This document shows, piece after piece, positions 40,024 to 61,785 of a stretch of DNA of 64,000 bases (position 1 is the stretch's first letter; each line of letters starts with the position of its first letter). The stretch comes from Erysipelotrichaceae bacterium (GTDB taxonomy: Bacteria > Bacillota_I > Bacilli_A > Erysipelotrichales > Erysipelotrichaceae). Location of the stretch: NCBI GenBank assembly GCA_017533785.1, contig JAFWII010000004.1:62001-126000 (forward strand), in the 5' to 3' direction. Both the position numbers and the translations under genes were made by a program. The notes beneath the pieces are model-generated. The model did no database searches and was not told the origin of the DNA. It was given only the letters and a program-made list of their open reading frames with translations.

Positions 40024-41139
40024 TCAAATCGGCAATAACACGAACAATTTTGATTTGTCGACCTGGGCGACGAATTCCACAAAATCATTTTGTTCGTCCA
40101 TAGGCGGCACCATCAACCGCAAAGAGTTGATGGAATTAAAATTCAACCCTGCCTTTACTGCGCTCTGGTTTTTTGATTCGAATTGTTCTTTTCCCGCAGG
40201 ACTTTCCATGAAATACGCAACGTACAGCGGGTTAAGAGTATTTCGATTTAGACGAATACAAGTTAGGTGCTGGTTGATGTAGGCGCCGTGTTCTGCGATT
40301 TCTCTTGTAACAACACCAGTTCGCCCCAAATCTGCCGTGATACTAATCAGTAAGTCACCTTCTTGCACTTTCGTTCGCTTTGCCTCAGCATTATCGGGAG
40401 CATTGACAGGTTGCATATTATCAATCGAAATGCGGCATTCTTTAACATTCTTTATAGTAATAAACCATTCTACTCCATCATCCACACAATACTGTGCCCA
40501 ACCGCGAGAGCCGGATGTAAGGAAAGCGATATGTTCCGAGAGCTGACAAACAGGATAGTTGTTAGGGTTAATTCTTGGATCTCCAAACATCTCGACAAAT
40601 CGGGCTTTGATTAAGTCATCAAGAGCGGCCAATTCCTGCCGACGGGCATCAATGATTCTCTGCACTGTATCCAGTCGAACAACTATCTCTGCCTGCGTCT
40701 GAGCAGGATATACTGGGATCTCATATGCAATCCATCTGCTCAAATCGATGGATTTGCCTTGTCGACTTCCGCGTTTCATGTACCGCGCAAACATGTCCAT
40801 ATTGCGACAATGCAAACAATAACGCAGATAGTCATAATCAATTCCGGCTATCCTATATGTGTGGTACGCAGGAGACACAGAATATACCGTATCATCAGAT
40901 AGAATTCCTATGTCCATTTGGACAGACCCCATCCCCACCGTCAGCGTCCCTTTGTAGATTAGCTTGTTTTTCGAATAGTCCTTCGCAAGTTCCTTAGAAT
41001 AAATGCTTTCCCTAGTTCGAATTCCATAACGTCCAACTGCAACGGGGCGATACTTGTTATCAGTATTTAGCTCTTTGTATTCCGTTAGGTATTCACTCAA
41101 CGGATGCAAAGTAATTGCGGATCTATTGATTATGCTCAT
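40024..41139 (-). CDS. hsdS: Type I restriction specificity subunit HsdS, second copy, C-terminally shortened
   Basis: HsdS sets the DNA target of the type I complex. The 371 residues carry two target-recognition domains separated by the conserved helix region RLDTVQRIIDARRQELAALDDLIKARFVEMFGDP. The second one ends at FVAQVDKSK and then runs into LFVLLPI and a stop, lacking about 20 residues present in the other copy. The ATG at 41139 is chosen: TTGAGG lies nine bases upstream, and that whole block is shared with the other hsdS as a perfect 23-bp repeat. It follows the recombinase gene closely on the same strand, so it may be expressed or act as a cassette store. Confidence 0.85.
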   Translation of the reverse strand: MSIINRSAITLHPLSEYLTEYKELNTDNKYRPVAVGRYGIRTRESIYSKELAKDYSKNKLIYKGTLTVGMGSVQMDIGILSDDTVYSVSPAYHTYRIAGIDYDYLRYCLHCRNMDMFARYMKRGSRQGKSIDLSRWIAYEIPVYPAQTQAEIVVRLDTVQRIIDARRQELAALDDLIKARFVEMFGDPRINPNNYPVCQLSEHIAFLTSGSRGWAQYCVDDGVEWFITIKNVKECRISIDNMQPVNAPDNAEAKRTKVQEGDLLISITADLGRTGVVTREIAEHGAYINQHLTCIRLNRNTLNPLYVAYFMESPAGKEQFESKNQSAVKAGLNFNSINSLRLMVPPMDEQNDFVEFVAQVDKSKLFVLLPI

Positions 41140-41155
41140 CCCTACAAACCTCAAT
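41133..41155. repeat. 23-bp direct repeat, copy at hsdS2 start
   Basis: TGCTCATCCCTACAAACCTC plus AAT, identical to 43319-43341 and in the same orientation. The repeat spans the ribosome binding site and start codon of hsdS. Confidence 0.9.
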
Positions 41156-41164
41156 CTGTAGGGC

Positions 41165-42133
41165 CTATGCTATATACCTCCTATGAGATGTTTTAACGTT
41201 ATTTTGATTTACGATAGCATATTGCATCGTCGTATCAATCTGCGAATGTCCAAGGATCTTTTGGACCTGTTCTATAGGCATTCCCTTGTCAATTGCCCTT
41301 GTTGCCATTGTGCGGCGAAACTTGTGCGGGTGAATCCGTTCAATTGAAAGCCGCCTGCCCAGTTTCCTCAGACGTATCTCTACGCCGCTGATCTTCAAAC
41401 GGTCATATGGAGCGTCCAATGTTACAAAAAGCGCTGGATTATCATCGCTGCGGCTTTCAAGATACTCTGACAGATGGACCTTTGCCTTCGCGTCAAAATA
41501 AACGCGCCGTTCCTTTTCGCCTTTTCCGAAGACAATGCATTCACGCTGTTCCAAATCAACATCAGAGATGTTAAGCTGAACGAGTTCTCCGACTCTGATA
41601 CCGGTGGAGTACAGGAGATCTATAATCGCCAGATCCCTAAGCTCCGTGCAGGCATCCCGCATACGCTCCATACTTTCGTCGGAAATCACTTCCTTCACAA
41701 CGGTCTTAGTTTTGATCTTGTGAATCCGCCTCATAGGGCTTTTCAGAATATAATCCTCTTCTTCAAGCCAAGAGAAGAAACTGGATATATTCCTGCGGAT
41801 ATTGTCCACCGTTACCTTGCTGCAGCGCCCATTCTGCTGATACTCTACCAAGTAGGTACGTATCTCGTCAGTCGTCATTTTTCGGATCGGTGTTTTGACC
41901 CGATTCAGCAAATGTTCTGCTGTAGTCCTGTAATACTGAATTGTCCGCTCTGAGCAACCCTCGATCCTTTTTGCATCCAAGAACAACTTCAAATACTCTT
42001 CGTTAGTTGTTTCTATCTGCTTGACAGGATTAGGCACAAGATTTTTCAGTAACACCTCTTGCAGTTTTTTCATCTGAGCAATGCTCAGATACTCCGCCAT
42101 TTCATTTAAGATACTAACCAGTTTTTCTTCCAT
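41165..42133 (-). CDS. Tyrosine recombinase (XerC/integrase type) between the two hsdS genes
   Basis: A 322-residue site-specific recombinase. The N-terminal SAM-like core-binding domain (EEYLKLFLDAKRIEGCSERT) precedes the catalytic domain with Arg in LYSTGIRVGELVQLN, HPHKFRRTMATRA (HxxR), LGHSQIDTTMQYA (His and Tyr). All active-site residues are present. The ATG at 42133 has AAGGAGTG upstream; 22 extra codons overlap the hsdS end. Such genes linked to hsdS usually rearrange specificity domains by inversion; here both hsdS genes point the same way, which changes what it could do. Confidence 0.92.
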   Translation of the reverse strand: MEEKLVSILNEMAEYLSIAQMKKLQEVLLKNLVPNPVKQIETTNEEYLKLFLDAKRIEGCSERTIQYYRTTAEHLLNRVKTPIRKMTTDEIRTYLVEYQQNGRCSKVTVDNIRRNISSFFSWLEEEDYILKSPMRRIHKIKTKTVVKEVISDESMERMRDACTELRDLAIIDLLYSTGIRVGELVQLNISDVDLEQRECIVFGKGEKERRVYFDAKAKVHLSEYLESRSDDNPALFVTLDAPYDRLKISGVEIRLRKLGRRLSIERIHPHKFRRTMATRAIDKGMPIEQVQKILGHSQIDTTMQYAIVNQNNVKTSHRRYIA

Positions 42134-42191
42134 GTTGATACACTCCTTTTTTATGATGTACCAACATCCTGCACCGGCTAGGCCAATCTTT

Positions 42192-43325
42192 TCATCCAAA
42201 GTATTGCTGCATCAAGCTATCGAATAGCAGCTGTGCTTCATCGAGCGCTTTTTGTACGACAACTTTTGATTTGTCGATTTGGGCTACAAAAGTGGAAAAC
42301 GCTTCTTGTTGTGCGATAGGCGGCAGAATCATCTTAAATGCTTTTATATCCCCAACATTTATGTGGGGTGAAGCAGACCCACTCATTTCTTTCAGCGCAT
42401 TGTCCAAGAAGGAATCAAAGTTCATCGCAACTGAGATGAATTCCGGCGTACAGAAGGCTCTATCAGGAGACAGCAACATGGATCGTTGGCCAAGAGCCAC
42501 ATTACAATCTCTATCAAGTACAGCAGCTATACCCAAAATCGCACCTTCACGCGTATAAATAACGTCACCTTTCTCTGGCTTTTTCCTCTGAATTCTCTGT
42601 ATATACTCTTCCTCCGGAATATACTCTATATCTTCCCACATAATCCTGTTCTTTTTGACTATAGAGGTCCGTATGCACATAAACCCAGTGTCCTCTAAGG
42701 TATAACTCGGAGTAGAATGCGGACAGTCTACGATGGATTTACAAGCATCTTCTAATGCTTTTGTTTGCCATTCCATTTCGTTCCGAACAGGATCTCCAAA
42801 CATCTCGATAAATCGGGCTTTGATAAGTTCATCAAGGGTAGATAGTTCCTGCTGGCGTTTTATTATTATACTCGAGACAGTATCGAGCCTATTTATAATC
42901 TCAGCCTGTGCACTTAATTCGGCAACCTTAAACTCATAGTCCAAAACATCGTCTTTTGAACAAGTAGGGTACGTGGCTCCTTTTGAATTTGCTCCGAGAT
43001 ATTGTAAAAACGGCTTACTGCAAAGACAATAGAACAAATATCTTGGCATGCAAAGTCTTTCATCTGGCTTCAGCACAGCGAACGCAGAAGACACAGCAGG
43101 AGATTTTTCTTTGACAGTTGTTATTGCGCCTCTTGTCGGTCGTACGGTAGAAACAAGAATTTCACCTTGATATGCCAAAACAGCCCCAGGAACAGAGCCT
43201 TTGTCTTTTAAAGAATAATCTTTAGTGTTTGTATCAATATCACCTATCTCAATGTAAGGAAAAGAGCCCTCAGATGCTTTGGCTGTTTTTCTCTTTTCGA
43301 CTATTTCTCGTATTCTCTTGCTCAT
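42192..43325 (-). CDS. hsdS: Type I restriction specificity subunit HsdS, main copy
   Basis: The 377-residue protein is full length with two target-recognition domains. The central conserved region is RLDTVSSIIIKRQQELSTLDELIKARFIEMFGDP, and the C-terminal one starts FVAQIDKSKVVVQKALDEAQ and ends SLMQQYFG. Start at 43325: TTGAGG lies nine bases upstream, right behind the hsdM stop. The DNA around the central region (42790-42818) is nearly identical to 40577-40605 in the second copy, giving a further place for exchange. Confidence 0.92.
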   Translation of the reverse strand: MSKRIREIVEKRKTAKASEGSFPYIEIGDIDTNTKDYSLKDKGSVPGAVLAYQGEILVSTVRPTRGAITTVKEKSPAVSSAFAVLKPDERLCMPRYLFYCLCSKPFLQYLGANSKGATYPTCSKDDVLDYEFKVAELSAQAEIINRLDTVSSIIIKRQQELSTLDELIKARFIEMFGDPVRNEMEWQTKALEDACKSIVDCPHSTPSYTLEDTGFMCIRTSIVKKNRIMWEDIEYIPEEEYIQRIQRKKPEKGDVIYTREGAILGIAAVLDRDCNVALGQRSMLLSPDRAFCTPEFISVAMNFDSFLDNALKEMSGSASPHINVGDIKAFKMILPPIAQQEAFSTFVAQIDKSKVVVQKALDEAQLLFDSLMQQYFG

Positions 43326-43341
43326 CCCTACAAACCTCAAT
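43319..43341. repeat. 23-bp direct repeat, copy at hsdS1 start
   Basis: Identical to 41133-41155. Recombination between the two copies would delete hsdS1 and the recombinase and place hsdS2 directly behind hsdM with its ribosome site intact. Confidence 0.9.
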
Positions 43342-48575: not shown

Positions 48576-50831
48576 CTAATGGAGTGTTTCTTGATTAGGG
48601 AGAAACCTTTTCCAGGTGTTCACTCGTTTCTTCATTCCTTCTATATCAAGTGCTCCGTTTGCAAACCCTTTCCGGACAAGTTCTTCCGGAACATACTCAT
48701 CGTATTTCTCGAAAACGGGATTCTCTTTTGGATAAACGAGTTCAAGCGGATCAAAATCAACGGAAGCTTCTTTGCTCACGATCTCATAGAACTTTTCTTC
48801 TGTCACATTCATCGTAAACTGCATGTAGTAAGGTCTTGAAGAACTGAGCCCCTTCAGACCGAGTTTCTCTCCGCAGCGAAGCTTCAGGAAACGCTCCAGC
48901 GCAAGGAACGCGTAACTTCCCAGCCATGGGAAAAGAGCCCACATCCTGCCACCCAGATGAACGAGCGGACGTTCGGACATAAGCGATTTCCTGAATGTAT
49001 CTCTTGCTGTTGCGAGGCGCGCAACTGCGTGACGCATCAGATATGGATACTGTTTATCCTCGGATAAAACACCATACATACGTTCCAAGATCCGGGTATG
49101 GATATCCCCTGCCACATCACCAAAATACGCCGGGATATTGCCCTTAACTAGTGTGCAGTATAATTCGCGACGTTTATGATCCACTTCCTCGACGACCCAG
49201 ACTCTGCCGGCGATCGCGATCTTATCTCCTACCGGCGGAGGCTTGACGATCGTACCAAGCTGTTCGGAACCGGAATGAACGGTATATTCGATATTCTCTT
49301 GGAATACCGCATAAAACTTATAGCTGTTGGTGATCCTCTCTCCAGTCAGACCAACGATCAGTCCTCCGTTTTCGGTACGATTGATATGGTCTGTTTTTAT
49401 TAAATGTCGAAGAAGGATCTTATAGTCTTCCTGTGTGATCCTGTGGAAACAGCTCAATGATAATACACGCGAAGCCAGTTCTGCCGGTGTCATTTCTCCG
49501 CAGGATGCCAGTGTACTCATCGTCTGATGATACAGCAGACTGTAAGGCAGCCTATCGGTTCGCGGCGGTTCGACAAAGCGTTCTTCAATATATAACTGAA
49601 CTAACGCAATTCCCTGGATTAAATACCACGGGATGCTGTCTGGCAGCATGGCTCTTGCTTCCTGATGCTCCTCGCGCATGACGAACCACATTTCCGAAGG
49701 ATCTCCCCTTCTGCCTGTTCTGCCCATTCGCTGCAGGAATCCCGAAACGGTAAACGGCGCGTCGATCTGGAAAGCGCGTTCGAGACGCCCTATATCGATG
49801 CCGAGTTCCAGTGTTGCGGTCGCGCAGACGGACATTAAAGAATCATCATCCTTCATATCCGCTTCTGCACTCTCTCTGTAGGAAGCAGAAAGATTGCCGT
49901 GGTGGATCAGGAAACGCTCCGGCTCATGATTGACTTCGCAGTACTGACGAAGGCTCTGGCAGACACTTTCGCATTCCTCACGGGAATTGGTAAAGATCAG
50001 ACATTTCTTGCCGCGGGTATGATCAAAGATATAGCCGAGACCCGGATCTGCCGCAAAGGGCGCCTGATCCGTGGCCTGTTCCAATACCGGAGTAACGACT
50101 TCGATATCTTTTCCTTCATCGGCCTGCGGAGCACTGTTGTAGAAGTGTTCCATGCTGAGACGCCAGACTTCTTTCCCACCGTCAAAGCGCGGGATCACCG
50201 TCCCTCTTTTGCTTCCGGAAGCCAGAAACTCCCCTGCCGCTTCGGGATCACCGATCGTGGCGGATAAACCGATCCTGCGCGGATCACAACCTGCTAGTTT
50301 ACAGAGACGTTCGATCAGACAGAAAGTCTGCAGACCGCGGTCTGCACGCAATAAGGAATGGATCTCATCGATCACGATGAAACGGAGGTCCCCAAACAAA
50401 GACGGGATCTCCATATGTTTATTGATCAGTAAGGATTCCAAAGACTCCGGGGTGATCTGCAGGATCCCGGAGGGTTTTTTCAGCAGTTTCCTTTTCTGGC
50501 TCTGGGCGACATCTCCATGCCAGCGTCTGACCGGGATATCCGCTTCCTCGCACAGTTCATTCAGTCTGCCGAACTGATCGTTGATCAATGCTTTTAATGG
50601 CGCGATATAAAGGACGCCGACAGTCTTAGAGGGATCTTCCTCGAGCAGTGTCAGGATCGGAAAGAAAGCTGCTTCTGTTTTGCCGGAAGCTGTCGAAGCT
50701 GTTAACAGGACATTCTCATCGGTATTGAAGATCGCGTCCCCGGCTGCGTTCTGCACGCTGCGCAGACTCTGCCAGCCGGAACGGTAGATATAGTCCTGGA
50801 TAAACGGCGCATAACGTTCAAAGACATTCAT
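48576..50831 (-). CDS. Lhr/BrxHI-like superfamily 2 helicase
   Basis: The 751-residue DEAH-type helicase has Walker A ASTASGKTEAA, VIDEIHSLL, LSATIG and motif VI QRMGRTGRRGD. A winged-helix and extended C-terminal region (AIAGRVWVVEEVDHKRREL) follows, as in Lhr-type helicases and in BrxHI of BREX type 2 and BrxHII of type 3. It overlaps the ATPase gene by four bases (ATGA), so the three genes 54000-48576 form a coupled operon. No nuclease motif is seen. A role in antiviral defence or stress response is inferred from context. Confidence 0.87.
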   Translation of the reverse strand: MNVFERYAPFIQDYIYRSGWQSLRSVQNAAGDAIFNTDENVLLTASTASGKTEAAFFPILTLLEEDPSKTVGVLYIAPLKALINDQFGRLNELCEEADIPVRRWHGDVAQSQKRKLLKKPSGILQITPESLESLLINKHMEIPSLFGDLRFIVIDEIHSLLRADRGLQTFCLIERLCKLAGCDPRRIGLSATIGDPEAAGEFLASGSKRGTVIPRFDGGKEVWRLSMEHFYNSAPQADEGKDIEVVTPVLEQATDQAPFAADPGLGYIFDHTRGKKCLIFTNSREECESVCQSLRQYCEVNHEPERFLIHHGNLSASYRESAEADMKDDDSLMSVCATATLELGIDIGRLERAFQIDAPFTVSGFLQRMGRTGRRGDPSEMWFVMREEHQEARAMLPDSIPWYLIQGIALVQLYIEERFVEPPRTDRLPYSLLYHQTMSTLASCGEMTPAELASRVLSLSCFHRITQEDYKILLRHLIKTDHINRTENGGLIVGLTGERITNSYKFYAVFQENIEYTVHSGSEQLGTIVKPPPVGDKIAIAGRVWVVEEVDHKRRELYCTLVKGNIPAYFGDVAGDIHTRILERMYGVLSEDKQYPYLMRHAVARLATARDTFRKSLMSERPLVHLGGRMWALFPWLGSYAFLALERFLKLRCGEKLGLKGLSSSRPYYMQFTMNVTEEKFYEIVSKEASVDFDPLELVYPKENPVFEKYDEYVPEELVRKGFANGALDIEGMKKRVNTWKRFLPNQETLH

Positions 50832-52156
50832 ATGGTGAACTCCGTATAGCCCGGATCTGCTTCGTCAGATACAGCGTCCGATTTGGCATAGGAAAACTCT
50901 TCAGACTCGAGAAGCTCTTCGATCTTCATTCCCGAGTTCTGGTAAAGCAGATCCAGGAGTTCGATGAAATCACGGATCACCTCACGCGGGGTGATATTCT
51001 GGTCGGCGCCGATACGGCTGTATTCGATACGGATGAATCCGGCAAGATCTTCGGTATTCAGAGTGCGTTCATAACCGTAAAGCCCGGCATGCATATCCGC
51101 CAGTTTCTCGCACAATACCAGCATCTCTTCCGCTGACAGCGGTTCAAGACGGATGACCGGTGCCAACAGATCGCGTGCTCCCGGACGGGAGAAACGCCCT
51201 TCCGCCAGACGGGAACGAAGCGCTTCATAACTGTAGATGCCTCTTCTTTTATCTTCCAGCGCCTGCGGGGTCGCACCCATGATGATGCCGAGATAACGGG
51301 CTTTGCCCTGAAGGGTATCGTTATACATCGTCAGGATCTTTTCATAGTTGTACTGACGGGTGATCGAATTCGGGATCTTGTAGATATTGACCAGTTCGTC
51401 GATCATGATCATCATGCCGGAGTATCCGGCAAGACGGAAGAAGGTCGCGAACAGTTTCAGATAGTCATACCAGTCATCATCGGTAATGATCATATTGACG
51501 CCAAGGGCTTCCCTGGCTTCGCTTTTCAGATTGTATTCCGCGCGGAACCAGCGAACGACTTTTGCCTTGGTCTCGTCGTCTCCGTTGACATATGCACGGT
51601 AATATGCAGAAAGTAATTTCGCGAACTCAAAACCGTGGACCAGTTCGCTGACGGAGGATGTCACTTCATAGATCTTTCGGTCGGTCGCTTCCGCAAGTCC
51701 CGGATCTCCGGGCAGAAGACCGGTCGTCGCAGCAGTCTCGCTCTGTACCGTCGAGATCCATCGATCGAGAACCAAGGTAAGAGCTCCACCCTCCGGTTTT
51801 GTCTTGGTAGAGAGATTTCCGATCAGTTCACGGTAGGTAGCCAGACCCTGGCCGCGGGTACCCTGCAGCCTACGTTCTGGGGAAAGGTCAGCATCGGCGA
51901 CGATAAAACCGCGGTCCATGACATAATTGCGGATCGTCTGCAGCAAAAAGCTCTTTCCTGAGCCATATCGTCCAACGATAAAGCGGAAGGATGCCCCTCC
52001 TTCGGAAATGATATCGACATCGTGCAGCAAAGCTTCGATCTCGTTTTTCCGTCCTACTGTGATATACGGCAGACCGATACGCGGAACGACGCCGCCCTTC
52101 AGGGAATTCAATACCGTCTGGGCGATCCGCTTCGGCACTTTTGTTTTGTTTGTCAT
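50828..52156 (-). CDS. BrxD-like P-loop ATPase (DUF2791 type)
   Basis: The 442-residue ATPase has Walker A GRYGSGKSFLL, a hydrophobic Walker B MMIMIDELVNIY and a long insertion after strand 2 (LSPERRLQGTRGQGLATYREL). These match BrxD-type proteins that pair with an Lhr-like helicase in BREX systems. The C-terminal part (ITPREVIRDFIELLDLLYQ) resembles the lid and winged-helix of STAND/ORC-like ATPases. It overlaps both neighbours by four bases, so the stoichiometry of the three products is probably linked by translational coupling. Confidence 0.86.
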   Translation of the reverse strand: MTNKTKVPKRIAQTVLNSLKGGVVPRIGLPYITVGRKNEIEALLHDVDIISEGGASFRFIVGRYGSGKSFLLQTIRNYVMDRGFIVADADLSPERRLQGTRGQGLATYRELIGNLSTKTKPEGGALTLVLDRWISTVQSETAATTGLLPGDPGLAEATDRKIYEVTSSVSELVHGFEFAKLLSAYYRAYVNGDDETKAKVVRWFRAEYNLKSEAREALGVNMIITDDDWYDYLKLFATFFRLAGYSGMMIMIDELVNIYKIPNSITRQYNYEKILTMYNDTLQGKARYLGIIMGATPQALEDKRRGIYSYEALRSRLAEGRFSRPGARDLLAPVIRLEPLSAEEMLVLCEKLADMHAGLYGYERTLNTEDLAGFIRIEYSRIGADQNITPREVIRDFIELLDLLYQNSGMKIEELLESEEFSYAKSDAVSDEADPGYTEFTI

Positions 52157-54000
52157 ACGATGTCACCTCCTAGCAGTTCTCTCACTTCTTCTGTATAGTC
52201 CTCAACCAGTGACAGATCATCTTCTTTACAGTCCAGGACCGTATCGCCGATCTCATCGAATAACGCGCCGTTGATCGAATCGGCGACGATCGACGGCATA
52301 AGATGTTCGTTTTTCAGCAATTCCTTTACCGGATGCCCTGCAAGGAGTTCGCGCAGGACGCGGACCTCCAGCGGGGATAAAGGAAGATCGAAACGCCCTT
52401 CCTCCGGTATTTCGGTTTCCGGAACAGCTTCCTCCGGTTCAAAGACTACTGTATCCTCCGACTCCTCGTCGATCAGAAGACTGTTCTGGGTCTGCCAGGC
52501 ATCCTGACGGATCCTGTCAAGTCCGGAAAGATCGATGCGGATCTCTTTTCTTGCCGCTTTCTTAACGGCGATCTTATCCTCGCTGATCGCAGCTTCGATA
52601 TAGGGAACCGCCCATTGTTCGTCTTCCTTAAGACGGAGATAATGTCCCGTCTTCAGATAATGGCGGAACTGACAGTCACAGGCGTGCAGGAAACCCTGCA
52701 ACTTCTTCAGATCGAAGTTGATCCTGGAATAGGACTCCATCGTCCAGTTTCCGTCTTCCAGACGGCAGCAGCGGCATTCGTCGATCTCGCATACCCGGTC
52801 TTCCTCTTTCTCGTTACGAAGATAAACGGTATTGGATAAAGGGAACCAGCGACGGATCGCCTTCCTGCCGAACAGCAGGGTAAAGAAATCATACCCATCC
52901 TGATTATAATCCTTTGAGACTCTCCGGAACGCGGTGCAGAACAGGCGTTTTGCCTCTTCGGGATGTTTTTGCACGAACAGCGAACCTGTCAGCGTCTTTC
53001 CGGCTGTCCGCTTCAGCATATCGAACAGTTCTTCGTCCGATGCGTCTTCGGGAAAACGCAGGATCCGCATCGCGGCGTCACTTTTTAAGAGTTCCGGATC
53101 GACATAGCGAAGGACCGTTTCTTTCGGCAGATCTTTCAGGACGGCGTATTCCAGCATCCAGCGGCGCAGATTGACCTGCATATAGCGATCATTCGGTGCA
53201 TGTTCAAACCAGAGCCTGCGGAATTCTTCCATCTTTTCAAGCGTTTCTTCCGGCGAAGAGACACCAATGCCGTTCAAGAGTTCATAGATATAGATATAGG
53301 CAGCGGAAGCCGGTACGGAGGACCATCTCCCCTTTCGCAGATCTGTCCGCCAGGAGAAATAGCCGCGCAGCTGTTCGATGCCGAGATCATGATACGTCGG
53401 ATAATAACAGGAGAAATAACCGGTCCAGGGATAGTTGTCTTCATAATCCTGCATGAATCGTGCCTGCCGGACGAAGTTTTCCGCTTTTTCCTGCTGAGAT
53501 TCCCTGCCGTATACAAAGAGCTTCCGCATCTGGCGGATCTTTTCCGGAACGATCACTTTCTGCGGACGGTAGGAGCTTCCCGAAAACGGAAGAGCGATAT
53601 CCTGATAGACACTGGTGGTGGTACGCACCTTCTTCTCCTCAAGGACCATGGTATAGCCGCGCTGTTCACCGGACGTGAGAGCACGATCAAAGAGTTTATA
53701 TACGACATCCTTTTCCGTATTGTCATCGAAGAAAACGCTGATCCATTTATCTCCGTGCATGCGCACCGGAACGTTCAGATAAGACTTCGGGAATTCGACG
53801 AGACTCTGCCTTCCGCACTTGAGGTCGCAGATCTCGATCACTTCCCCGCTTTCCTCGTCCCACTGGCGCATCAGCAGAGCGACCCATTTGTTCGTATCCG
53901 GATGAACGAGCACGGAAAAACCCGGGAAATCAGCCCATTTATGCTGTTCCTGGATCTGATATTTCTCCTGTGCGTAGGACGTCAGTTCTGAAAGCTCCAC
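52153..54000 (-). CDS. TerB-N/TerB-C domain protein with N-terminal YjbR-like domain
   Basis: The 615-residue protein heads the cassette. Residues about 1-110 look like a MmcQ/YjbR domain (FPGFSVLVHPDTNKWVAL... GDKWISVFFDD). Residues about 155-330 form TerB-N, with YPTYHDLGIEQLRGYFSWRT and YIYIYELLNGIGV. About 480-560 carry TerB-C (IDLSGLDRIRQDAW, SLLIDEE), and a helical tail follows. TerB-N proteins are linked to tellurite-type stress and phage defence networks, though their biochemical role is unproven. GTG start with AAGGAG eight bases upstream. The CxxxCRCC cluster (CEIDECRCCRLED) might bind metal. Confidence 0.85.
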   Translation of the reverse strand: MELSELTSYAQEKYQIQEQHKWADFPGFSVLVHPDTNKWVALLMRQWDEESGEVIEICDLKCGRQSLVEFPKSYLNVPVRMHGDKWISVFFDDNTEKDVVYKLFDRALTSGEQRGYTMVLEEKKVRTTTSVYQDIALPFSGSSYRPQKVIVPEKIRQMRKLFVYGRESQQEKAENFVRQARFMQDYEDNYPWTGYFSCYYPTYHDLGIEQLRGYFSWRTDLRKGRWSSVPASAAYIYIYELLNGIGVSSPEETLEKMEEFRRLWFEHAPNDRYMQVNLRRWMLEYAVLKDLPKETVLRYVDPELLKSDAAMRILRFPEDASDEELFDMLKRTAGKTLTGSLFVQKHPEEAKRLFCTAFRRVSKDYNQDGYDFFTLLFGRKAIRRWFPLSNTVYLRNEKEEDRVCEIDECRCCRLEDGNWTMESYSRINFDLKKLQGFLHACDCQFRHYLKTGHYLRLKEDEQWAVPYIEAAISEDKIAVKKAARKEIRIDLSGLDRIRQDAWQTQNSLLIDEESEDTVVFEPEEAVPETEIPEEGRFDLPLSPLEVRVLRELLAGHPVKELLKNEHLMPSIVADSINGALFDEIGDTVLDCKEDDLSLVEDYTEEVRELLGGDIV

Positions 54001-54103
54001 GCTCTTTTCTCCTTATTGTTATTCCCTTTTACAGTTGAAGTAGTCTATTTATACCTTAACAGTTTTTCGCCTAGAATACGCGGTTTCTACAGCGTTTCAG
54101 GTA

Positions 54104-54125
54104 AGAAAAAAGGCCTTCCGGCCAA
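54104..54125 (-). terminator. Terminator of yneF
   Basis: Minus strand: TTGGCC, GGAA loop, GGCC followed by TTTTTTC. It lies 37 bases behind the yneF stop. Confidence 0.6.
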
Positions 54126-54161
54126 CATCGTCTGGATGCTGCAAAAGACCCTGAAAGAAAC

Positions 54162-54398
54162 TTATTTCTTGTCTGCTTTCTTGGTTGTGTCCTGACCCAT
54201 GGTCTTCATGATCGCACGGATCTGGGCTTCCGACGGTTTTCTGCCCATCTGGAGGAACATTGCGCGGATCATCTTTTCTGTGACCGGCGGGTTCTTTTCC
54301 ATTTCTCTCTTGGTTACATAACGGGAGATGAAGAAACCGAGGACAGCACCGATCAGGATGCCGAGAACCAAATATAATACCATCTGCTGCCAATTCAT
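54162..54398 (-). CDS. yneF: YneF-family (UPF0154) membrane protein
   Basis: The 78-residue protein has one N-terminal membrane helix (VLYLVLGILIGAVLGFFISRYV) and a conserved basic tail with NPPVTEKMIRAMFLQMGRKPSEAQI. The function is unknown, but the family is widespread in Bacillota. The ATG at 54398 has AAAGGTGG eight bases upstream; a GTG four codons earlier lies inside that ribosome site. It is a core gene inside the island. Confidence 0.93.
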   Translation of the reverse strand: MNWQQMVLYLVLGILIGAVLGFFISRYVTKREMEKNPPVTEKMIRAMFLQMGRKPSEAQIRAIMKTMGQDTTKKADKK

Positions 54399-54410
54399 AA
54401 TTGTTACCAC

Positions 54411-54893
54411 CTTTACTCTGTTACCTATTCTACTTAAACAAGCAGAATTTGTAAATCAAAAGCCCAATAGGCGCAAATTTCCTGGCAACTCCCAGGTGGG
54501 TCATCTCGCTGATTCTTTAGGAGTCTCACTCGTAGGCAAGCTTTCAACACCAAATCACGACTTGATTAAGACCCGAATTCAAAATGTAGGAATTTATCAT
54601 ACCTATCAGGCAATTTCATTATATTGGGTATATTCCTATATGAATAGTCTTGACTTTTATCGATTTCTCTGCGTGGTGCAAATATACTCGTTTTAACACA
54701 TATCGGCAGTGATTTTCAGCATTGATTCGTGAATGATACGAACGGCGATACCGGTTTGAATTTTCGGCACGGTTTAGATAAAAAGCTCTGCCAGATCCTT
54801 TTGCTCATAGCAGATAAGGCAGAGCTTTTTATCATCAGCATCCCTCTATGGGGATTCAGCCATCGAATACCGGATTACAGTTCATAGACGCAT
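54411..54893. other. Non-coding stretch, 483 bases, no gene recognised
   Basis: Apart from a long-loop hairpin at its right end, this AT-rich piece shows no gene with a start, ribosome site and plausible protein. An open frame on the + strand continues through 54696 (phrases GNSQVGHLADSLGVSLVG), but it begins inside yneF on the other strand and has no start signal. I saw no tRNA cloverleaf. It may be a decayed integration border. Confidence 0.5.
54779..54831 (-). terminator. Terminator of the pseudokinase/CFI-box operon
   Basis: AAAAAGCTCTGCC pairs with GGCAGAGCTTTTT around a 25-nt loop, with T runs on both strands. It lies 60 bases behind the last gene of the operon. Confidence 0.7.
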
Positions 54894-55469
54894 TTATCCT
54901 CCGTATACTTCTTTCAGACGCATACAGCCTTCCGCATAGATCCGATAGGCTTCCTCGTAATCCCTCCTTTCAATTGCACTGACCGAGGGCAGGATCATAT
55001 TCGCATAGATGTTCCTGTAGATTTGATCGCAGTCCTCCAGTGAATCGATGCGCTCAACGATCTGCGGTGCGGTGGCGTAATAGATTTCGATATCTTTGGG
55101 GTGATGTTCTTTCAGATAGCCGTCACGGTAATCCCTCAGAGTCTTAAGCTCATAGCACTCATCATCGAACACCTCCTGCATATGCGCCATGCAGGCAGAA
55201 GTGATAAAGCAGCCTCCTGAGTCAATTGTGTTGGTTCCGATACTGGCGTAAAAGTCTTCTCTGCCGGTATCCCGGCTTCTAACGTTCTTGAAAGGATCCC
55301 AGTTCTGGTTGGTAATACGATATTTCGCGTTGGCAAATGCGTTTCTTGCCTTCTGCGACTCCGGAATATCGTACTGCGCTATTCGCATCAGTTCGTGCTA
55401 TTCGTAATCGGAGACATAACTCCCGTATTCGGAGGCATGTTCGAATGCCTGATTCAGCAGATCTTCCAT
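54894..55469 (-). pseudogene. CFI-box protein with an in-frame amber codon
   Basis: From the ATG at 55469, which has the strong site GGGGAG seven bases upstream and follows the previous stop by two bases, the frame runs 23 codons to TAG (55400-55398) and then goes on open for 167 codons. The main part carries the CFI-box pattern: GGCFITSACMAHM, LKTLRDYRDGYL and IEIYYATAPQIVERID, with conserved Cys, Arg, Asp and Tyr residues. This motif is found as a C-terminal module in many bacterial proteins of unknown function. Translation could restart at the ATG 55388, without a good ribosome site. Whether the stop is real, an error or read through is unknown. Confidence 0.72.
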
Positions 55470-55471
55470 GC

Positions 55472-55810
55472 TTATCTCCCCATCGGGTAGAGCAGATCCC
55501 GATACTCGCTGAAAATATGCTCAATATCTTCCCTGTTGTTTTCGATGAATTCTTCTTTGCTGAAGCTCTGGGCACACTGGTCGATCAGATACTGAACAGT
55601 GCTGACGTCTTCCTTAAGTTTTGTAAAGCGTTTGCCGGCGCCATAAATGTCCGCTGCAAACTGCTCTTTCTTCTTCTCGTTGACCAGATAGCGGTACAGA
55701 TTCACCAGCTGTCTCTGATATCTGGACAGTTCCATTCTTCTTTCGATATCGGCGATCTCTCTGTCTCTTCTACCGTCAAAATAATCCGTCACCTTCGTGA
55801 ATAATCCCAT
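55472..55810 (-). CDS. Small helical protein, 112 residues
   Basis: I do not recognise the family. The protein is charged and helical (RRDREIADIERRMELSRYQRQLVNLYRYLVNEKKKEQF) and probably coiled-coil. GLFTKVTDYFDG at the N-terminus could be an amphipathic helix. The ATG at 55810 has GGAGG nine bases upstream; the longer frame upstream overlaps the previous gene. The gene lies two bases after the preceding stop and two bases before the CFI-box gene, so it belongs to the operon. Confidence 0.78.
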   Translation of the reverse strand: MGLFTKVTDYFDGRRDREIADIERRMELSRYQRQLVNLYRYLVNEKKKEQFAADIYGAGKRFTKLKEDVSTVQYLIDQCAQSFSKEEFIENNREDIEHIFSEYRDLLYPMGR

Positions 55811-55812
55811 AA

Positions 55813-56121
55813 TTACTTTTCCTCCTTTATGGCTTGAGCTTTGATATAGCGCCTCATTTTTTCCGAGATGCCGTCTTTTTTCCGCAGAGTCATCTCGATT
55901 CCTTCTTTCCCTTTCCGCAGGCGGGCATAATACTCGATCTCCTTTTCTAAGAGCAATCCGTTCAGTCTGCATTCAGTTTCCCACCGGATCTCTTTGCTGA
56001 CAGTCAGAACAGGATTGAACATGCTGACTCTTACCTCCTTTCCTTCTCTGATATAAGGCTCGGCCATTTCATACAGTTTCTCTGCCATGATCCTGCTTTC
56101 TGTTTCGTGCTTCATTTTCAA
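55813..56121 (-). CDS. Small protein of unknown function, 102 residues
   Basis: No family recognised. The protein is basic at the end (ISEKMRRYIKAQAIKEEK) and has a beta-rich middle (KEVRVSMFNPVLTVSKEIRWETECRLNG). The TTG at 56121 overlaps the pseudokinase stop (TTGA) with GAGG about ten bases upstream; an ATG two codons later is the alternative. Tight packing with both neighbours implies coupled translation. Confidence 0.72.
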   Translation of the reverse strand: MKMKHETESRIMAEKLYEMAEPYIREGKEVRVSMFNPVLTVSKEIRWETECRLNGLLLEKEIEYYARLRKGKEGIEMTLRKKDGISEKMRRYIKAQAIKEEK

Positions 56122-56942
56122 AACGGAACATCCTCCTCGCAGATATAAGAAGTTTCTTTCTGGTTCGTTTCTTTCTGCAGTATCTCTTCAAAATCCATGC
56201 TGTCTTCCGCGTAGATGAAGAAGTGTCTGTCGATAGGGAGATACCCATCCGCGAAAATACTGATCCAGCATTCTCCGGAAGAGATGATCAGCTCCGCTTC
56301 CCCGTTCGCATCGCTTGCTGCGTCAAAGAACTCCTCTTTTCTGAAGATATGCATGATGCTGATCATTGCGCCGCTGACCGGCTCGTTTTCCTCATTCCGC
56401 AGGCGGACGCTGACATAGGCGGAGCCGTCGCGGTCTCTTCTGTACCGCCTGGCGCATTTGCCCGCTTCTAGGCTTGCTGCCAGTTCCTGATATGTGATCC
56501 GTTGCTCCGGCTCTTTTTCCAGCATTCCGGAGATCAGGTTGAAATGCACATCATCAAGAAGATCACTGACCTCCACCTTCTCTTCTGCCAGCAGCGCTTC
56601 TCTTACGGTGTCTTTCTCCCCTTTACAGAAGGGAAGCATCTCGCTGAGCATCTCGTGCATCAACAGTCCGAGTGAGAAGATATCGCTGGCAGGTGTCTTT
56701 TCACTCTCCGGACAGTCGTATTCCGGATTGGAAAACATCGTATTCAGATCCACCTCCGCATACAGCCGGTGGTCTTTCTGGATCAGGGTGATGTTCTCCG
56801 GGCAGAGACAGCCGTAAGCTTTTCCTTTCTTCCAGAGCGGCATGAGCTGCCGTATGATGCTTTTGAACGCTCCGTCTAGCTCTGCAGTGTCATAGACATA
56901 ACTGAGATACTCGGGTTCATACTCTACTGTCATTCGTTTCAC
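56118..56942 (-). CDS. Pseudokinase C-lobe fused to a carboxypeptidase-regulatory-like domain
   Basis: Residues about 20-165 match the C-lobe of a protein kinase: AYGCLCPENI (42-51) in the catalytic-loop position but without His-Arg-Asp, VDLN where DFG should be, PASDIFSLGLLMHEML (84-99) and EPEQRITYQEL (144-154). The N-lobe with glycine loop and ATP-binding Lys is absent, so it cannot be an active kinase. Residues about 173-250 look like a beta-sandwich (AYVSVRLRNEENEPVSGAMI... ASDANGEAELII) of the carboxypeptidase-regulatory type. GTG start. First gene of a four-gene operon, divergent from a STAND NTPase. Confidence 0.78.
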   Translation of the reverse strand: MKRMTVEYEPEYLSYVYDTAELDGAFKSIIRQLMPLWKKGKAYGCLCPENITLIQKDHRLYAEVDLNTMFSNPEYDCPESEKTPASDIFSLGLLMHEMLSEMLPFCKGEKDTVREALLAEEKVEVSDLLDDVHFNLISGMLEKEPEQRITYQELAASLEAGKCARRYRRDRDGSAYVSVRLRNEENEPVSGAMISIMHIFRKEEFFDAASDANGEAELIISSGECWISIFADGYLPIDRHFFIYAEDSMDFEEILQKETNQKETSYICEEDVPF

Positions 56943-56965
56943 ATTTCTTCCCTTTTCCTCCTTGA

Positions 56966-56994
56966 TTGAAAGAGCTTCGGCAAGGCCTTATAAT
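56966..56994 (+). promoter_or_regulatory. Promoter of the STAND NTPase gene
   Basis: TTGAAA (56966-56971), 17-base spacer, perfect TATAAT (56989-56994). The leader would be about 100 bases, room for control. Confidence 0.7.
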
Positions 56995-57102
56995 GATTTC
57001 ATTACCTGGCTTTCCTTGCTCTCGCAGCTTAATCATATCGGATAGTATGCGAAACCCAATTGGCAGCCATTGGCATGAAAATGATAGGAACTGGAGGCAG
57101 TT

Positions 57103-59211
57103 TTGAAGCTTAATTACGGGTCTTTTGAAGCCATCTTTACGAAATACTTTTCCTACAGCAGCGAACTGGATTATCTTTACGATGCCCTGGTGGAATACAG
57201 CGATGTCGATAAGACAACGATCGTTCTTTTAGCGTCGGTCAGAGGAAACGAAAGCGAGATCGAAGACGCTTTGAGCATCAACAGCACCACCCTTTCCAAA
57301 TTCCGTACTTCGGAAAGAGACATCAATAAGAAACTGAAAGATATGGCAAAGAGGTGCGAAGAAAGTTATACGGAGGATTTCTTCGAATACAATCTGCTGG
57401 AATACGTTCCCTGCCATCTGTATCCGGCACTCATTCTGGATTATCTGAAACTGATCGACTACGATCATACGATCTCTCCGAAAAACAAAGCGCAGTTCCA
57501 CTCCCTGGTCCGTGAAGGACTTCAGAAGCAAAGTGTTGCCCGCTTTCTGAGCAGCGTCTTTCGCTATGCACTGATACAGGACAACACATGGCACGAAAAC
57601 ACGATCATCCATGCCCCGCATGGACGCAACCCCTTCTTTACCGGAAGAAAAGAAGAACTCCACCGGATGCGGGATGCTCTGCATAAAAGCGACATGGTGA
57701 CCCTCAGCGGGATGCCGGGGTGCGGAAAAAGCGAACTTGCTCTGGCTTACGTAAACGCGCTGCCGGACGCGCAATGGACCGTTCTCTTTGTGGATGCGGA
57801 AACGGCAGAAGGTATCATCAACTCCTACAGAGAACTGATCAGCTTTCTTTCTCTAAAAGAAGATATCCGGGAAATGCAGGAAGATACAGTTATCTCCGAA
57901 GTAAAACGTTGGGCAGACAGTGAAAAATGTTTGTTTATTTTTGACAACGTCGATTATGCCGACAGGAAAAAACGTCATTCTTTGCAGAAATACCTGCCCG
58001 AGCCGAAAAACAGCACAAAGATCATCTTCACCACCCGGAATAAGAAACCTTACCTCGAGGAGATGGTGATCTCTCTTTCCGGTTTTTCCGAAGAAGAAAG
58101 CGTAGAGTATATCATGCACCGCGCAAACCGGACCAAAAACAAAAAAGGCGCTGCCGCCATTGCGGAACGTCTCGCCTATTACCCGCTGGCCCTTAGCCAG
58201 GCGGCTTCCTTTCTTAACATCTATCAGGGGATCTCTTTTGAGAATTATCTTGACAGGCTGAAAGGCGGATTGGAGATTCTGGAAAAATACGCGGAATACT
58301 CTGATGCGGAAAGAAGCCTCAGAGAAACTATGCAGATCACATTCAGCACCTTATCACGATCGGAAAGAGATCTGCTTCAGCTCGCTTCCTATTTCAGCGA
58401 AGACGGTATGCACCTGCATATTCTGAACCGCCTTTTCTATCAGATGTATGTTTACAGAGGCAAAGAAGCTTCGTCTTATCTTGCAAAGCTGGAAAAAGAC
58501 ACGGAACTTCGCTGCACAATGGCAGCCCGCTTATTCCCCTTCGGTTATATCGGATACTACTATGCTGACTGTACAGATGAGATGGCGCAGAAAATCGATA
58601 TCTCCCTGTATTCCCACTATTCTTTGGGAAAAAGCAAGAGAAAAGATCTTCCCGCATTCCTTCAAAATGAGGAAATAAGCTCACTCGCGGAAGAGGATCG
58701 TTTTCTGAAGGATTCACAGGGTATCACACAAAAATCTCTGGCGGATTTTATTCTCTCCTCCAGGAACTATGACGATCTCGCTTATTTCAACAACACCAGC
58801 GTCATGAAGATGCATCGTCTGGTCATGGAAGCACTAAGGGAAATGGACAACGATCTGCATTATCTGAAGCTGGCGATCGATATCATGTACGACGTGACCC
58901 CGAACGTGAGACATGGTGTCATCTCCGTATATGAGGATAACGATATACTCGAAGTACAGGCCAGAGCGCTGTGCAGGCATGCTTTCGATCATTTTGCGGA
59001 ATTACCGGACACCTATAAAGACAAAATTGCTGATATCGCCAGATATGTCGTGCATTGGATGGATTTTGAAGAAGATATCGATCTCGGCGAATACGGAAAT
59101 CCGGAATTTGAATATGTTGCCTCCAGCGATGAAGAATGCGACGCGGAACATATGAAAGCTTTGCGGGATATGAAGATGGATTCTTTCATTCCGACTACCC
59201 GCTGGTATTAG
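57103..59211 (+). CDS. STAND (NB-ARC-type) NTPase with N-terminal helix-turn-helix-like region
   Basis: The 702-residue protein has an ATPase core: Walker A GMPGCGKS (203-210), Walker B CLFIFDNVD (276-284), sensor arginine IIFTTR (307-312) and the GLPL-like YYPLALSQAA (about 362-371). Residues 50-82 resemble a helix-turn-helix (SINSTTLSKFRTSERDI). Residues 95-160 are a helical unit (EYVPCHLYPALILDYLKLID). The C-terminal 250 residues are helical but without clear repeats. STAND proteins switch on when they sense a trigger and often act in antiphage abortive defence. TTG start with GGAGG five bases upstream. Promoter divergent from the pseudokinase operon. Confidence 0.85.
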   Translation: MKLNYGSFEAIFTKYFSYSSELDYLYDALVEYSDVDKTTIVLLASVRGNESEIEDALSINSTTLSKFRTSERDINKKLKDMAKRCEESYTEDFFEYNLLEYVPCHLYPALILDYLKLIDYDHTISPKNKAQFHSLVREGLQKQSVARFLSSVFRYALIQDNTWHENTIIHAPHGRNPFFTGRKEELHRMRDALHKSDMVTLSGMPGCGKSELALAYVNALPDAQWTVLFVDAETAEGIINSYRELISFLSLKEDIREMQEDTVISEVKRWADSEKCLFIFDNVDYADRKKRHSLQKYLPEPKNSTKIIFTTRNKKPYLEEMVISLSGFSEEESVEYIMHRANRTKNKKGAAAIAERLAYYPLALSQAASFLNIYQGISFENYLDRLKGGLEILEKYAEYSDAERSLRETMQITFSTLSRSERDLLQLASYFSEDGMHLHILNRLFYQMYVYRGKEASSYLAKLEKDTELRCTMAARLFPFGYIGYYYADCTDEMAQKIDISLYSHYSLGKSKRKDLPAFLQNEEISSLAEEDRFLKDSQGITQKSLADFILSSRNYDDLAYFNNTSVMKMHRLVMEALREMDNDLHYLKLAIDIMYDVTPNVRHGVISVYEDNDILEVQARALCRHAFDHFAELPDTYKDKIADIARYVVHWMDFEEDIDLGEYGNPEFEYVASSDEECDAEHMKALRDMKMDSFIPTTRWY

Positions 59212-59414
59212 GAAGATCGTTGTTTCCGTTGTGTTCTATGAAAACAAAAGAGTCATCATGATGGCTTCACGAAGGCCGATACTTATGCGTCACCTGTTCA
59301 AACGGCTTTTCGAAGACCTTAACAGGCGCAGCATTATCGACCCTTGACCGGTCTATTCTTCATTCAGGTCTGCATTTATGCGGCCTTATACACATTTTCG
59401 ATACACAAGATATC

Positions 59415-59445
59415 AAAAGCCGGATCTTCGTAGATCCGGCTTTTT
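59415..59445. terminator. Two-way terminator between the STAND gene and the S1 protein gene
   Basis: AAAAGCCGGATCT, loop TCGT, AGATCCGGCTTTTT: a 12- to 13-bp stem with A and T runs on both sides between convergent genes. The remaining 200 bases of the gap hold nothing I recognise. Confidence 0.9.
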
Positions 59446-59448
59446 AAA

Positions 59449-59805
59449 TCATTTTTCCTTCAGCCACTGCGGCATTTTTTCCGATAATGTGCGGAATCCG
59501 ATCTTGTTTTCGGGAACACCCAAAAACGGGACGCGGTCATAGCGGTCCCGGCGGTTGCGTTTCAGGGCTTTATAAGACAGTCGTAACTGACGGTGGTCAT
59601 AATCGATGTCGATGATCTTGCATAATACAAAATCACCGATGTTCATGAAATGGCCGATGTTCTTCACAAAACCGTTGCTCAGCTCACTGATGTGGATCAG
59701 GCCGCTGTAGCCGTCTTCGAACTGAACGAAGGCGCCATAGGGTTTCAGGCCTGATACCTGACCGTAAACTGTCATGCCGATCTGATAGGTTTTTATTTCG
59801 TCCAT
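59449..59805 (-). CDS. S1-domain RNA-binding protein (CvfD/GSP13 type)
   Basis: The 118-residue protein has one S1 domain (YQIGMTVYGQVSGLKPYGAF... GLIHISELS) and a short basic tail. The family (B. subtilis YugI/GSP13, Streptococcus CvfD) acts as a translation-linked regulator of stress and virulence genes. It is divergent from the YuiD-like gene. Confidence 0.9.
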   Translation of the reverse strand: MDEIKTYQIGMTVYGQVSGLKPYGAFVQFEDGYSGLIHISELSNGFVKNIGHFMNIGDFVLCKIIDIDYDHRQLRLSYKALKRNRRDRYDRVPFLGVPENKIGFRTLSEKMPQWLKEK

Positions 59806-59849
59806 AAGAAGATTATAACACCAAATTAAGGAACTATTTTCGCTTCTTA

Positions 59850-59858
59850 TGGTATACT
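59850..59858 (+). promoter_or_regulatory. Extended -10 promoter of the YuiD-like gene
   Basis: TGGTATACT is an almost perfect extended -10 and lies only ten bases before the ATG at 59868. Transcription from it would give a leaderless or nearly leaderless message. Confidence 0.55.
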
Positions 59859-59867
59859 AACCATGTT

Positions 59868-60323
59868 ATGATTAGCAGAATGTATCCCTTCTGGTCCTTC
59901 CTGACGGCGCTTGTTCTGGCACAGCTGATGAAACCCTTCATCGCCAAGATGCAGGGTGATAAGTTCTCCTGGAAGATCGCTCTTGCATCCGGCGGTTTCC
60001 CGAGCTCACATTCATCTTCTGTCTCAGCGCTCTGCTTTTCGGTCGGGATCCTGGAGCATTTTGATTCGACGATCTTCGCTGTCACCCTGGCGCTCGCGGT
60101 GATCGTTTGTTATGACGCGATGAACGTGCGTTATTACGCAGGCAGAAATATCTATATCACCCGGCAGCTGATCCACGACCTTCAGGAAAAGGATGTCATC
60201 GACATGGATGACCCGGTCTATGAAGAAAAGGTCAAGGAAGTCCTCGGCCATAAGCGCAGTGAAGTGTTCGGCGGGTGCATATTAGGTGTATTGATCGCGA
60301 TCCTGTTGTATTATATGCAGTGA
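59868..60323 (+). CDS. Divergent PAP2-family membrane protein (YuiD type)
   Basis: The 151-residue protein has several membrane helices and the PAP2-like motif GGFPSSHSSSVSAL with conserved Ser and His, plus MNVRYYAG. The family is related to lipid phosphatases, but its substrate is unknown. No ribosome site precedes the ATG at 59868, and an in-frame ATG at 59880 is the alternative. The stop is followed by nifU-like at 11 bases, so the two are cotranscribed. Confidence 0.9.
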   Translation: MISRMYPFWSFLTALVLAQLMKPFIAKMQGDKFSWKIALASGGFPSSHSSSVSALCFSVGILEHFDSTIFAVTLALAVIVCYDAMNVRYYAGRNIYITRQLIHDLQEKDVIDMDDPVYEEKVKEVLGHKRSEVFGGCILGVLIAILLYYMQ

Positions 60324-60334
60324 AAAGAGGCAAT

Positions 60335-60619
60335 ATGAAAGAATACAGTGATACAGAGATCAAGATCATCCAGTGTCTGGAACGGCTCAGACCTTATATC
60401 CAGCATGACGGCGGTGATCTTGAATATATCGGTTTTGAAGACGGGATCGTCCACATCAAACTCTGGGGCGCCTGCGTCGGCTGCGGCATGGTGGACATGA
60501 CCCTGAAAGACGGGATCGAAGCCTACATCAAGGACGAAGTCGACGGCGTGGAAGCTGTTGTCCTGGATAACCCCTTCACCCCCTTCGAAGTACCGGAAGA
60601 AGAAAACGGACTGGATTGA
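60335..60619 (+). CDS. NifU-like C-terminal domain Fe-S scaffold protein
   Basis: The 94-residue protein is the NifU C-terminal domain on its own (Nfu type). The opening ERLRPYIQHDGGDLEYIGF and the cluster motif CVGC in LWGACVGCGMVDMTL are clear. It carries Fe-S clusters to apo-proteins. The ATG at 60335 has AGAGG at the right distance. A terminator overlaps its stop codon. Confidence 0.95.
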   Translation: MKEYSDTEIKIIQCLERLRPYIQHDGGDLEYIGFEDGIVHIKLWGACVGCGMVDMTLKDGIEAYIKDEVDGVEAVVLDNPFTPFEVPEEENGLD

Positions 60620-60634
60620 CCAGTCCGTTTTATT
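60603..60634. terminator. Two-way terminator between nifU-like and the AI-2E-type transporter
   Basis: AAAACGGACTGG, loop ATTGA, CCAGTCCGTTTTATTT: a 12-bp stem that contains the nifU stop codon in the loop, between convergent genes. Confidence 0.9.
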
Positions 60635-61785
60635 TACGCGTTGTTTGTGCCGGATTCCTTTTGTTTCAGGCGGTTGCTGACGAATTCCTTCATCAGGAAG
60701 TAGAATACCGCGAAGAACGGAACGCCGAGGATCAGGCCGGTGAAACCGAAGAAGCTGCCGCCCAGGATCGTCGCAAACATGATCCAGAGGCTGGAAAGAC
60801 CGACGGATTCGCCGACGACACGCGGTCCGATGACGTTGCTGTCGAGGAACTGGACGACCAGGATGATACCCAGAAGATACAGCGACTGGATCGGGTCGGA
60901 GATCAGGAGGATAAAGAGACACGGGATCGAGCCGATCCACGGTCCGAAGATCGGGATGATATTGGTAATACCGATCACAAATGCGATCAGGACAGAATAA
61001 TTCATCTGCAGGAAGTTCATCAGGAAGAAGCAGATCAGACCGATGATCGCCGAAGAGATCACCTTGCCGGAAATGAAGCTGCCGAGCTTGGTGTCAGTAA
61101 GATGGATGACCTTGTTCAGGCTGTTGAAGTGTTTTTCCGGAAGGATCGCTTTGGAAAGGCGCTTGATCTGGTCGATCAGGATCTCACGGTCGATCAGTAC
61201 ATAGATTGCCACGACAATACCGATGACAAAGTTCACGACGGAACGCACGCCTGTGATCGTGGAAGCGATGATATTCGGGATCTGTTCACGGGTAAAGGTA
61301 ATGATCGTATTGATCGAATTGCGGAACAATTCGTATAATGTCTGCTCGATGTTCGGATTCAGATTCAGGTTTTCGGTCAAATGTTCGAAAGTGCCGCTCA
61401 TATCGCTCGCGATACGGTTGACCAGATCGATCAGCTGTGTTACGGAAGCGGTGATCGGCGGGATCAGAACGATGACGAACAAGGCAACGATGACCGCGAA
61501 CAGCAGGATCGCGATTAACGAGGAATAGACCCGTTTATTCTTATTCGTCATTGCTTCCGGGAAAAGTTTTTCGACCGGATTGGCGATCAAAGACATGATG
61601 TACGCCAGAGCAACGCCGAGAATGAACGGCGAAAGAATATCGATGAATTTCTTCAGGCCGATAAAGATCTGGGTAAAATGCGTCAGGATCACGTAAAAGA
61701 GGACGATGATCATGCCGGAGATGGCGAACAGCGCCGTTTTTGCCTGGAATTCCGGATCTTTAAGCAGTTTTTTCATACTACTCAT
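60634..61785 (-). CDS. AI-2E family transporter (PerM/YdiK type)
   Basis: The 383-residue membrane protein has about eight membrane helices in the family arrangement: paired helices at the N-terminus (FAISGMIIVLFYVILTHF), a long cytoplasmic or coiled middle, and the conserved C-terminal set with IIPIFGPWIGSIPC and GSFFGFTGLILGVPFFAV. Relatives export small molecules such as autoinducer 2, or exchange Na+/H+; the substrate here cannot be told. The ATG overlaps the stop of the glycerophosphodiesterase gene by one base. Confidence 0.92.
   Translation of the reverse strand: MSSMKKLLKDPEFQAKTALFAISGMIIVLFYVILTHFTQIFIGLKKFIDILSPFILGVALAYIMSLIANPVEKLFPEAMTNKNKRVYSSLIAILLFAVIVALFVIVLIPPITASVTQLIDLVNRIASDMSGTFEHLTENLNLNPNIEQTLYELFRNSINTIITFTREQIPNIIASTITGVRSVVNFVIGIVVAIYVLIDREILIDQIKRLSKAILPEKHFNSLNKVIHLTDTKLGSFISGKVISSAIIGLICFFLMNFLQMNYSVLIAFVIGITNIIPIFGPWIGSIPCLFILLISDPIQSLYLLGIILVVQFLDSNVIGPRVVGESVGLSSLWIMFATILGGSFFGFTGLILGVPFFAVFYFLMKEFVSNRLKQKESGTNNA

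Follow-up and report, generated by a model that had tools for sequence, protein, structure and literature searches.

Conflict systems that contain STAND ATPases also use S/T/Y kinase domains with disrupted catalytic residues, which are thought to be non-enzymatic (Kaur et al. 2020, PMC7159879). Those systems are ternary and vWA-MoxR-centred. Kinase folds also occur in the KKP defence module, which needs active Ser/Thr kinases and a PP2C phosphatase (PMC11341870), and in TerY-P-type kinase/VWA/PP2C operons; a Lysinibacillus plasmid (L032) carries an operon of this type in which a CFI-box is fused to the kinase, with VWA and PP2C neighbours. In the window, the whole 64,000-nucleotide stretch of DNA analysed here (source assembly 1.8 Mb, 88% complete), we followed up a locus of five genes in which a STAND ATPase faces an operon with a kinase-like first gene. 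Like the systems of Kaur et al., this locus combines a STAND NTPase with an inactive kinase domain; however, it lacks vWA and MoxR, and its kinase is without the whole N-lobe. With the TerY-P-type operon of L032 it shares a kinase fold and a CFI-box in one operon, but a small protein of its own carries the CFI-box, there is no active kinase, and, with neither VWA nor PP2C in the unit, we rejected membership of the TerY-P triad. It also resembles KKP in having a kinase-fold protein in a phage-defence setting, although a single catalytically dead kinase fragment with no phosphatase does not qualify as that module. We tentatively favor, at somewhat less than even confidence, the view that the five genes are a laterally acquired, self-contained conflict system, probably anti-phage, with two divergent arms: a STAND switch and an operon that would serve as a non-catalytic sensor/adaptor.

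The minus-strand operon (56942-54894) consists of four ORFs with intergenic gaps of 2 nt, and its genes have purine-rich upstream sites that are mostly GGAGG-like (Table 1). The four operon ORFs score +0.31 to +0.49 bits/codon in frame, with the other five frames at about zero or negative, and the STAND ORF is also coding by codon usage, which marks all five genes (5/5) as real coding sequences. The initial annotation described the same arrangement, a tightly packed operon faced by a STAND gene with a strong promoter, and this layout stands, as does the promoter-like match (11/12), but such sites are not more numerous in the region than in shuffles. The span it gave, 56118-59211, was too short, because the operon extends further, to 54894. 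Past this end lies an inverted repeat that is probably the transcription terminator of the operon. No effector domain was recognised in any of the five proteins.

Table 1. Features of the five-gene locus and its nearest defence neighbour (window positions).
Feature	Position	Strand	Size or basis
P0001, kinase C-lobe + CarboxypepD_reg-like beta-sandwich	56118..56942	-	274 aa
P0002, no homologues detected	55813..56115	-	100 aa from its ATG; codon usage
P0003, helical, no homologues detected	55472..55810	-	112 aa; codon usage
CFI-box protein gene	54894..55469	-	192 codons, TAG at codon 24
P0004, STAND ATPase, NB-ARC / FxsT-like core (residues 175-442)	57103..59211	+	702 aa
Promoter-like site TTGAAA-17-TATAAT, reads towards STAND gene	56966..56994	+	consensus match only, 11/12
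Inverted repeat, 21-nt arms, 15-nt loop, T-rich end; operon end	54777..54833		repeat search
Gain/loss unit, 4,776 bp, all five genes	54676..59451		blastn + local alignment vs G001:C7
SngA, SngB, SngC (Shango), neighbour outside unit	48576..54000	-	PADLOC E 4e-70, 5e-191, 9e-287

The strongest evidence that the two arms belong together came from a congener, G001, which has ~84% nucleotide identity over 17-39 kb and which we compared by blastn and local alignment. Window segments 48618-54675 and 59452-61238 are syntenic in G001 and lie 171 bp apart there, and the 4,776 bp missing between them correspond precisely to the five genes plus the signals that flank them. Since both arms are absent together at one spot, the five genes form one gain/loss block in this single comparison, which establishes co-occupancy as opposed to joint function. 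The insert has a GC of 0.47 and host-like codon usage, in contrast to the type I restriction genes of the region (GC 0.40, codon usage unlike the host), and it contains no integrase or transposase. The main rival explanation, which we consider somewhat unlikely, is that two independent loci were stacked at a hotspot: a STAND defence ATPase working by itself and a small signalling or stress operon with no relation to it. STAND ATPases often work alone, each arm here has its own promoter region and the opposite orientation, and adjoining island slots also vary between congeners, as the type I restriction genes do, all of which would fit stacking. Against it, one pair of breakpoints removes both arms, and no mobility gene, repeat or housekeeping gene lies between them.

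The locus lies in a defence island, so that its context is stronger than the initial annotation stated: it had placed the locus beside a restriction island, and a type I restriction system is indeed present, but this description omitted Shango, which lies on the operon strand ~0.9 kb from the five genes. Shango (SngABC) inhibits phages in P. aeruginosa, where it operates with three genes (PMC10250203). Beyond it are the type I restriction system and then a PDC-S57 GIY-YIG protein. As SngA is close by and shares the strand of the operon, the five genes could be an accessory module of Shango, a reading that is highly improbable and the least likely of those considered, because G001 carries Shango without them. 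In addition, a YneF-like housekeeping gene (54410-54162) and the terminator-like repeat separate the operon from Shango, whose proteins differ from those of our locus. The two share an island as next neighbours and are separable by gain/loss. Membership of the MADS system was also considered for the region and rejected: MAD6 scored 35 bits against a cut-off of 460, MAD8 reached only E 7e-4, and hsdM and hsdS are much better explained as type I restriction genes.

P0001 matches Pkinase (PF00069) only over the C-lobe (positions 154-258, E 4.9e-9), and solved kinases align to it from residue 65 onward. Its C-terminal 100 residues resemble the CarboxypepD_reg beta-sandwich (PF13620; the domain by itself gives E 1.6e-4, under the curated cut-off), in agreement with the fusion of a kinase C-lobe to a beta-sandwich that had been proposed. 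The start codon is GTG and the open frame (289 aa) begins just 15 codons upstream, so the N-lobe is not encoded in P0001. We read the catalytic residues by alignment to the nearest full-length kinases (L152, L161, L164, L165 and L035). HxD is replaced by YGC, KPxN by CPEN and DFD by DLN; the metal-binding Asp and Asn positions are kept, the catalytic Asp and Lys are lost, and the activation segment is shortened. The earlier description of a kinase lacking the N-lobe, HRD and DFG was therefore correct for the first two and inaccurate for the third, as the DFG Asp is retained in DLN along with the Asn of CPEN. Read from its sequence, P0001 is a catalytically dead, C-lobe-only kinase: a kinase fold without the catalytic HRD Asp and without the complete bilobal domain that would include an ATP-binding N-lobe. 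A single-sequence model of the protein was unusable (pLDDT 37), and its secondary structure fits C-lobe helices followed by strands. Among the nearest Clostridial S/T kinases (L152:1387-2385, L161, L164 and L165), as well as in zinc-ribbon or membrane-type proteins encoded next to some of them, we observed a common C-terminal tail ending in AGDL (WFxxAGDL-like), possibly a tag shared across different folds within one operon.

The initial annotation noted that P0001 might be part of an active kinase through a second chain. We found no N-lobe in the P0001 ORF or in the adjoining small proteins, and P0002 and P0003 gave no kinase signal, which makes a split active kinase within the unit unlikely. 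A further possibility is that the operon is a decaying remnant of a once-active kinase operon of the kinase/PP2C/VWA type, in which the N-lobe and catalytic residues were lost and the CFI gene is now broken too. The in-frame TAG in the CFI gene agrees with decay; the nearest kinases are full-length and can adjoin PP2C genes (L152), and the same truncated form is present in no relative. However, P0001 has a start codon and ribosome site of its own, as well as an added beta-sandwich and a shortened activation segment; its coding bias is host-like across its full length, and recent decay would be expected to leave frameshifts and fragments. On balance we regard decay as quite unlikely.

At the other end of the locus, P0004 matches NB-ARC (PF00931) above the cut-off with an E of 8.6e-9. 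The P-loop core carries intact motifs (Walker A GMPGCGKS, Walker B LFIFDNVD, followed by TTR and MHR), as required of a STAND / NB-ARC protein and as claimed for the gene facing the operon. The core is related to that of FxsT, the TPR protein of the FxSxx-COOH system (NF040586; E 1e-41). P0004 differs from FxsT in lacking a detectable TPR region, in its N-terminal domain and in having no FxSxx partner that we could see, and its match of 143 bits against a cut-off of 300 covers the ATPase core alone, on which grounds we rejected its assignment as FxsT. No repeat family, such as the superstructure-forming C-terminal sensor repeats of STAND proteins, was detected in residues 440-702, and no solved structure matched P0004 by sequence.

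The operon ends, as described initially, with a CFI-box protein, although its gene is not intact. The protein carries the GC[FY][IL]T box and helical C-terminal domain of CFI-box-CTERM (NF041770), scoring 40.2 bits in the genome search and 38.7 bits by hmmscan against a cut-off of 40, and has the invariant residues common to 57 homologues. Its frame is interrupted by a TAG at codon 24 (55400-55398). In L054 and L057, the nearest relatives that we examined, the alignment continues through this stop with Tyr at its position, so the longer frame is the ancestral one. A restart at the ATG at 55388 would give 164 aa including the whole CFI-box domain, and this ATG has no good ribosome site. We conclude from the sequence that the stop may have broken the CFI gene.

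An alignment of 58 sequences yielded a confident all-helical model of the CFI-box domain (pLDDT ~97 over the domain), in which the invariant Cys is predicted to begin the first helix, which follows a flexible linker. By Foldseek the model had no significant match in solved structures or viral models; a Bcl-2-like fold was considered and dropped, since the top matches at E ~1 are no evidence for it. A search of a literature library found no paper on the domain. It is widespread, often in conflict-type settings, and is the only part of the unit with a wide distribution. Besides its fusion to the L032 kinase, it occurs at the C-terminus of dynamin-like or immune-type GTPases that resemble the IIGP/AIG1/dynamin families (L101 and L103, the former in runs of several such genes), is encoded after dynamin genes on E. 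coli plasmids, and in L057, a Streptococcaceae relative, lies ~3 kb from a Tmn-like gene. It looks like a module that could be recruited.

In Bacilli MAGs, a small helical ORF of ~95-150 aa often overlaps or adjoins the small CFI-box gene on its upstream side (L059-L062, L067-L071, L074-L076, L078 and L089); the proteins encoded by these ORFs fall into at least three sequence groups. P0003 does not belong to these proteins, the hhalign probability being at most 0.8%. The neighbours of the small CFI-box proteins of the phylum (L023-L029) include no kinase, STAND, P0002 or P0003 gene. Three MAG contigs assigned to different taxa (L054-L056) share a near-identical CFI-box gene in a similar gene order, with a reverse-transcriptase-like ORF after it in two of them; a shared mobile element is likely.

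We searched for the same genes elsewhere, in part with single-protein pattern scans that reach close relatives only, and in genomes that are a small share of known species. No dedicated relative of P0001 was detected in 60 relatives, 315 other genomes of the order or 391 Clostridia, where the matches recovered, ordinary kinases and other beta-sandwich proteins only, had E values of 1.4e-6 or weaker. P0003 was missing from the 391 other genomes searched in the phylum, and a genome-wide pattern scan of genome contigs gave no homologue; a second P0003-like match in its own genome (L004) was judged spurious, since the match and the end of an unrelated ORF overlap. None of 310 other genomes searched in the order had the P0004 STAND protein. 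Viral contigs contained no homologues of P0001, P0002, P0003 or P0004, no relatives of these four were found beside 96 CFI-box loci (54 genome, 42 viral), and tblastn against plasmids and phages recovered nothing beyond generic kinases, CFI-box proteins and NB-ARC proteins of the FxsT type. The five genes were thus found together in no other genome within this limited reach, the outcome that the initial annotation had named as counting against a system. Because the samples were small and the scans find close relatives only, this absence is not proof. As far as these limited searches go, the lack of recurrence appears to reflect the absence of detectable homologues of four genes, as opposed to their dispersal. 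The distribution of P0001, P0003 and the STAND protein, unseen in other genomes of the order or phylum samples, is as expected of an acquired unit.

Together, the observation behind the initial annotation is sound and the unit is better supported than could be known at the time; the claim of a system did not pass its test of recurrence in these limited searches. Several features argue for a two-arm conflict system: the joint absence in G001; the adjoining Shango, type I restriction and PDC-S57 genes; the intact STAND motifs; the five frames kept in host-like codon usage; and the recurrence of CFI-box domains with kinase/VWA/PP2C genes, with dynamin-like GTPases and near Tmn. The lack of a second genome with the gene set, the in-frame stop in CFI and the lack of a recognised effector domain argue against it. 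A new defence cassette is accordingly to be called plausible but unproven. We infer that the two arms could act jointly and that they might take sensor and effector roles, as first proposed.

A STAND switch with a non-catalytic operon is reasonable, because conflict systems with STAND proteins also have inactive kinases (PMC7159879). We speculate that the STAND ATPase would be the switch and that a trigger would be detected by its C-terminal part or by the operon proteins. The pseudokinase could serve without catalysis, as a scaffold or decoy that binds a partner through its beta-sandwich and kinase surface, with P0002, P0003 and the CFI-box helical domain as adaptors. Upon infection the scaffold would release or engage the STAND protein, which would then bind ATP and oligomerise, and its N-terminal domain would act to stop the phage or the cell. 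We consider doubtful a more specific version, in which the STAND protein is licensed by a non-enzymatic sensor scaffold made up of the N-lobe-less pseudokinase and small adaptors, and the CFI-box helical domain is a module for recruitment. If the arms do cooperate, a kinase C-lobe without the ATP-binding lobe would be a pure scaffold for an immune switch. This would set what kinases do as scaffolds in bacterial immunity apart from their catalysis, and would offer a tractable system in which to study the widespread CFI-box domain.

Two further observations concern the restriction part of the island. The GIY-YIG (T5orf172) protein at 39213-39866, which adjoins the type I restriction genes, matches the candidate defence family PDC-S57 with an E of 1.6e-86. 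At 40024-43340, a tyrosine recombinase is flanked by two same-strand hsdS-type genes, and direct repeats of 68 nt and 28 nt lie ~2.2 kb apart, an arrangement that may allow specificity switching by recombination.
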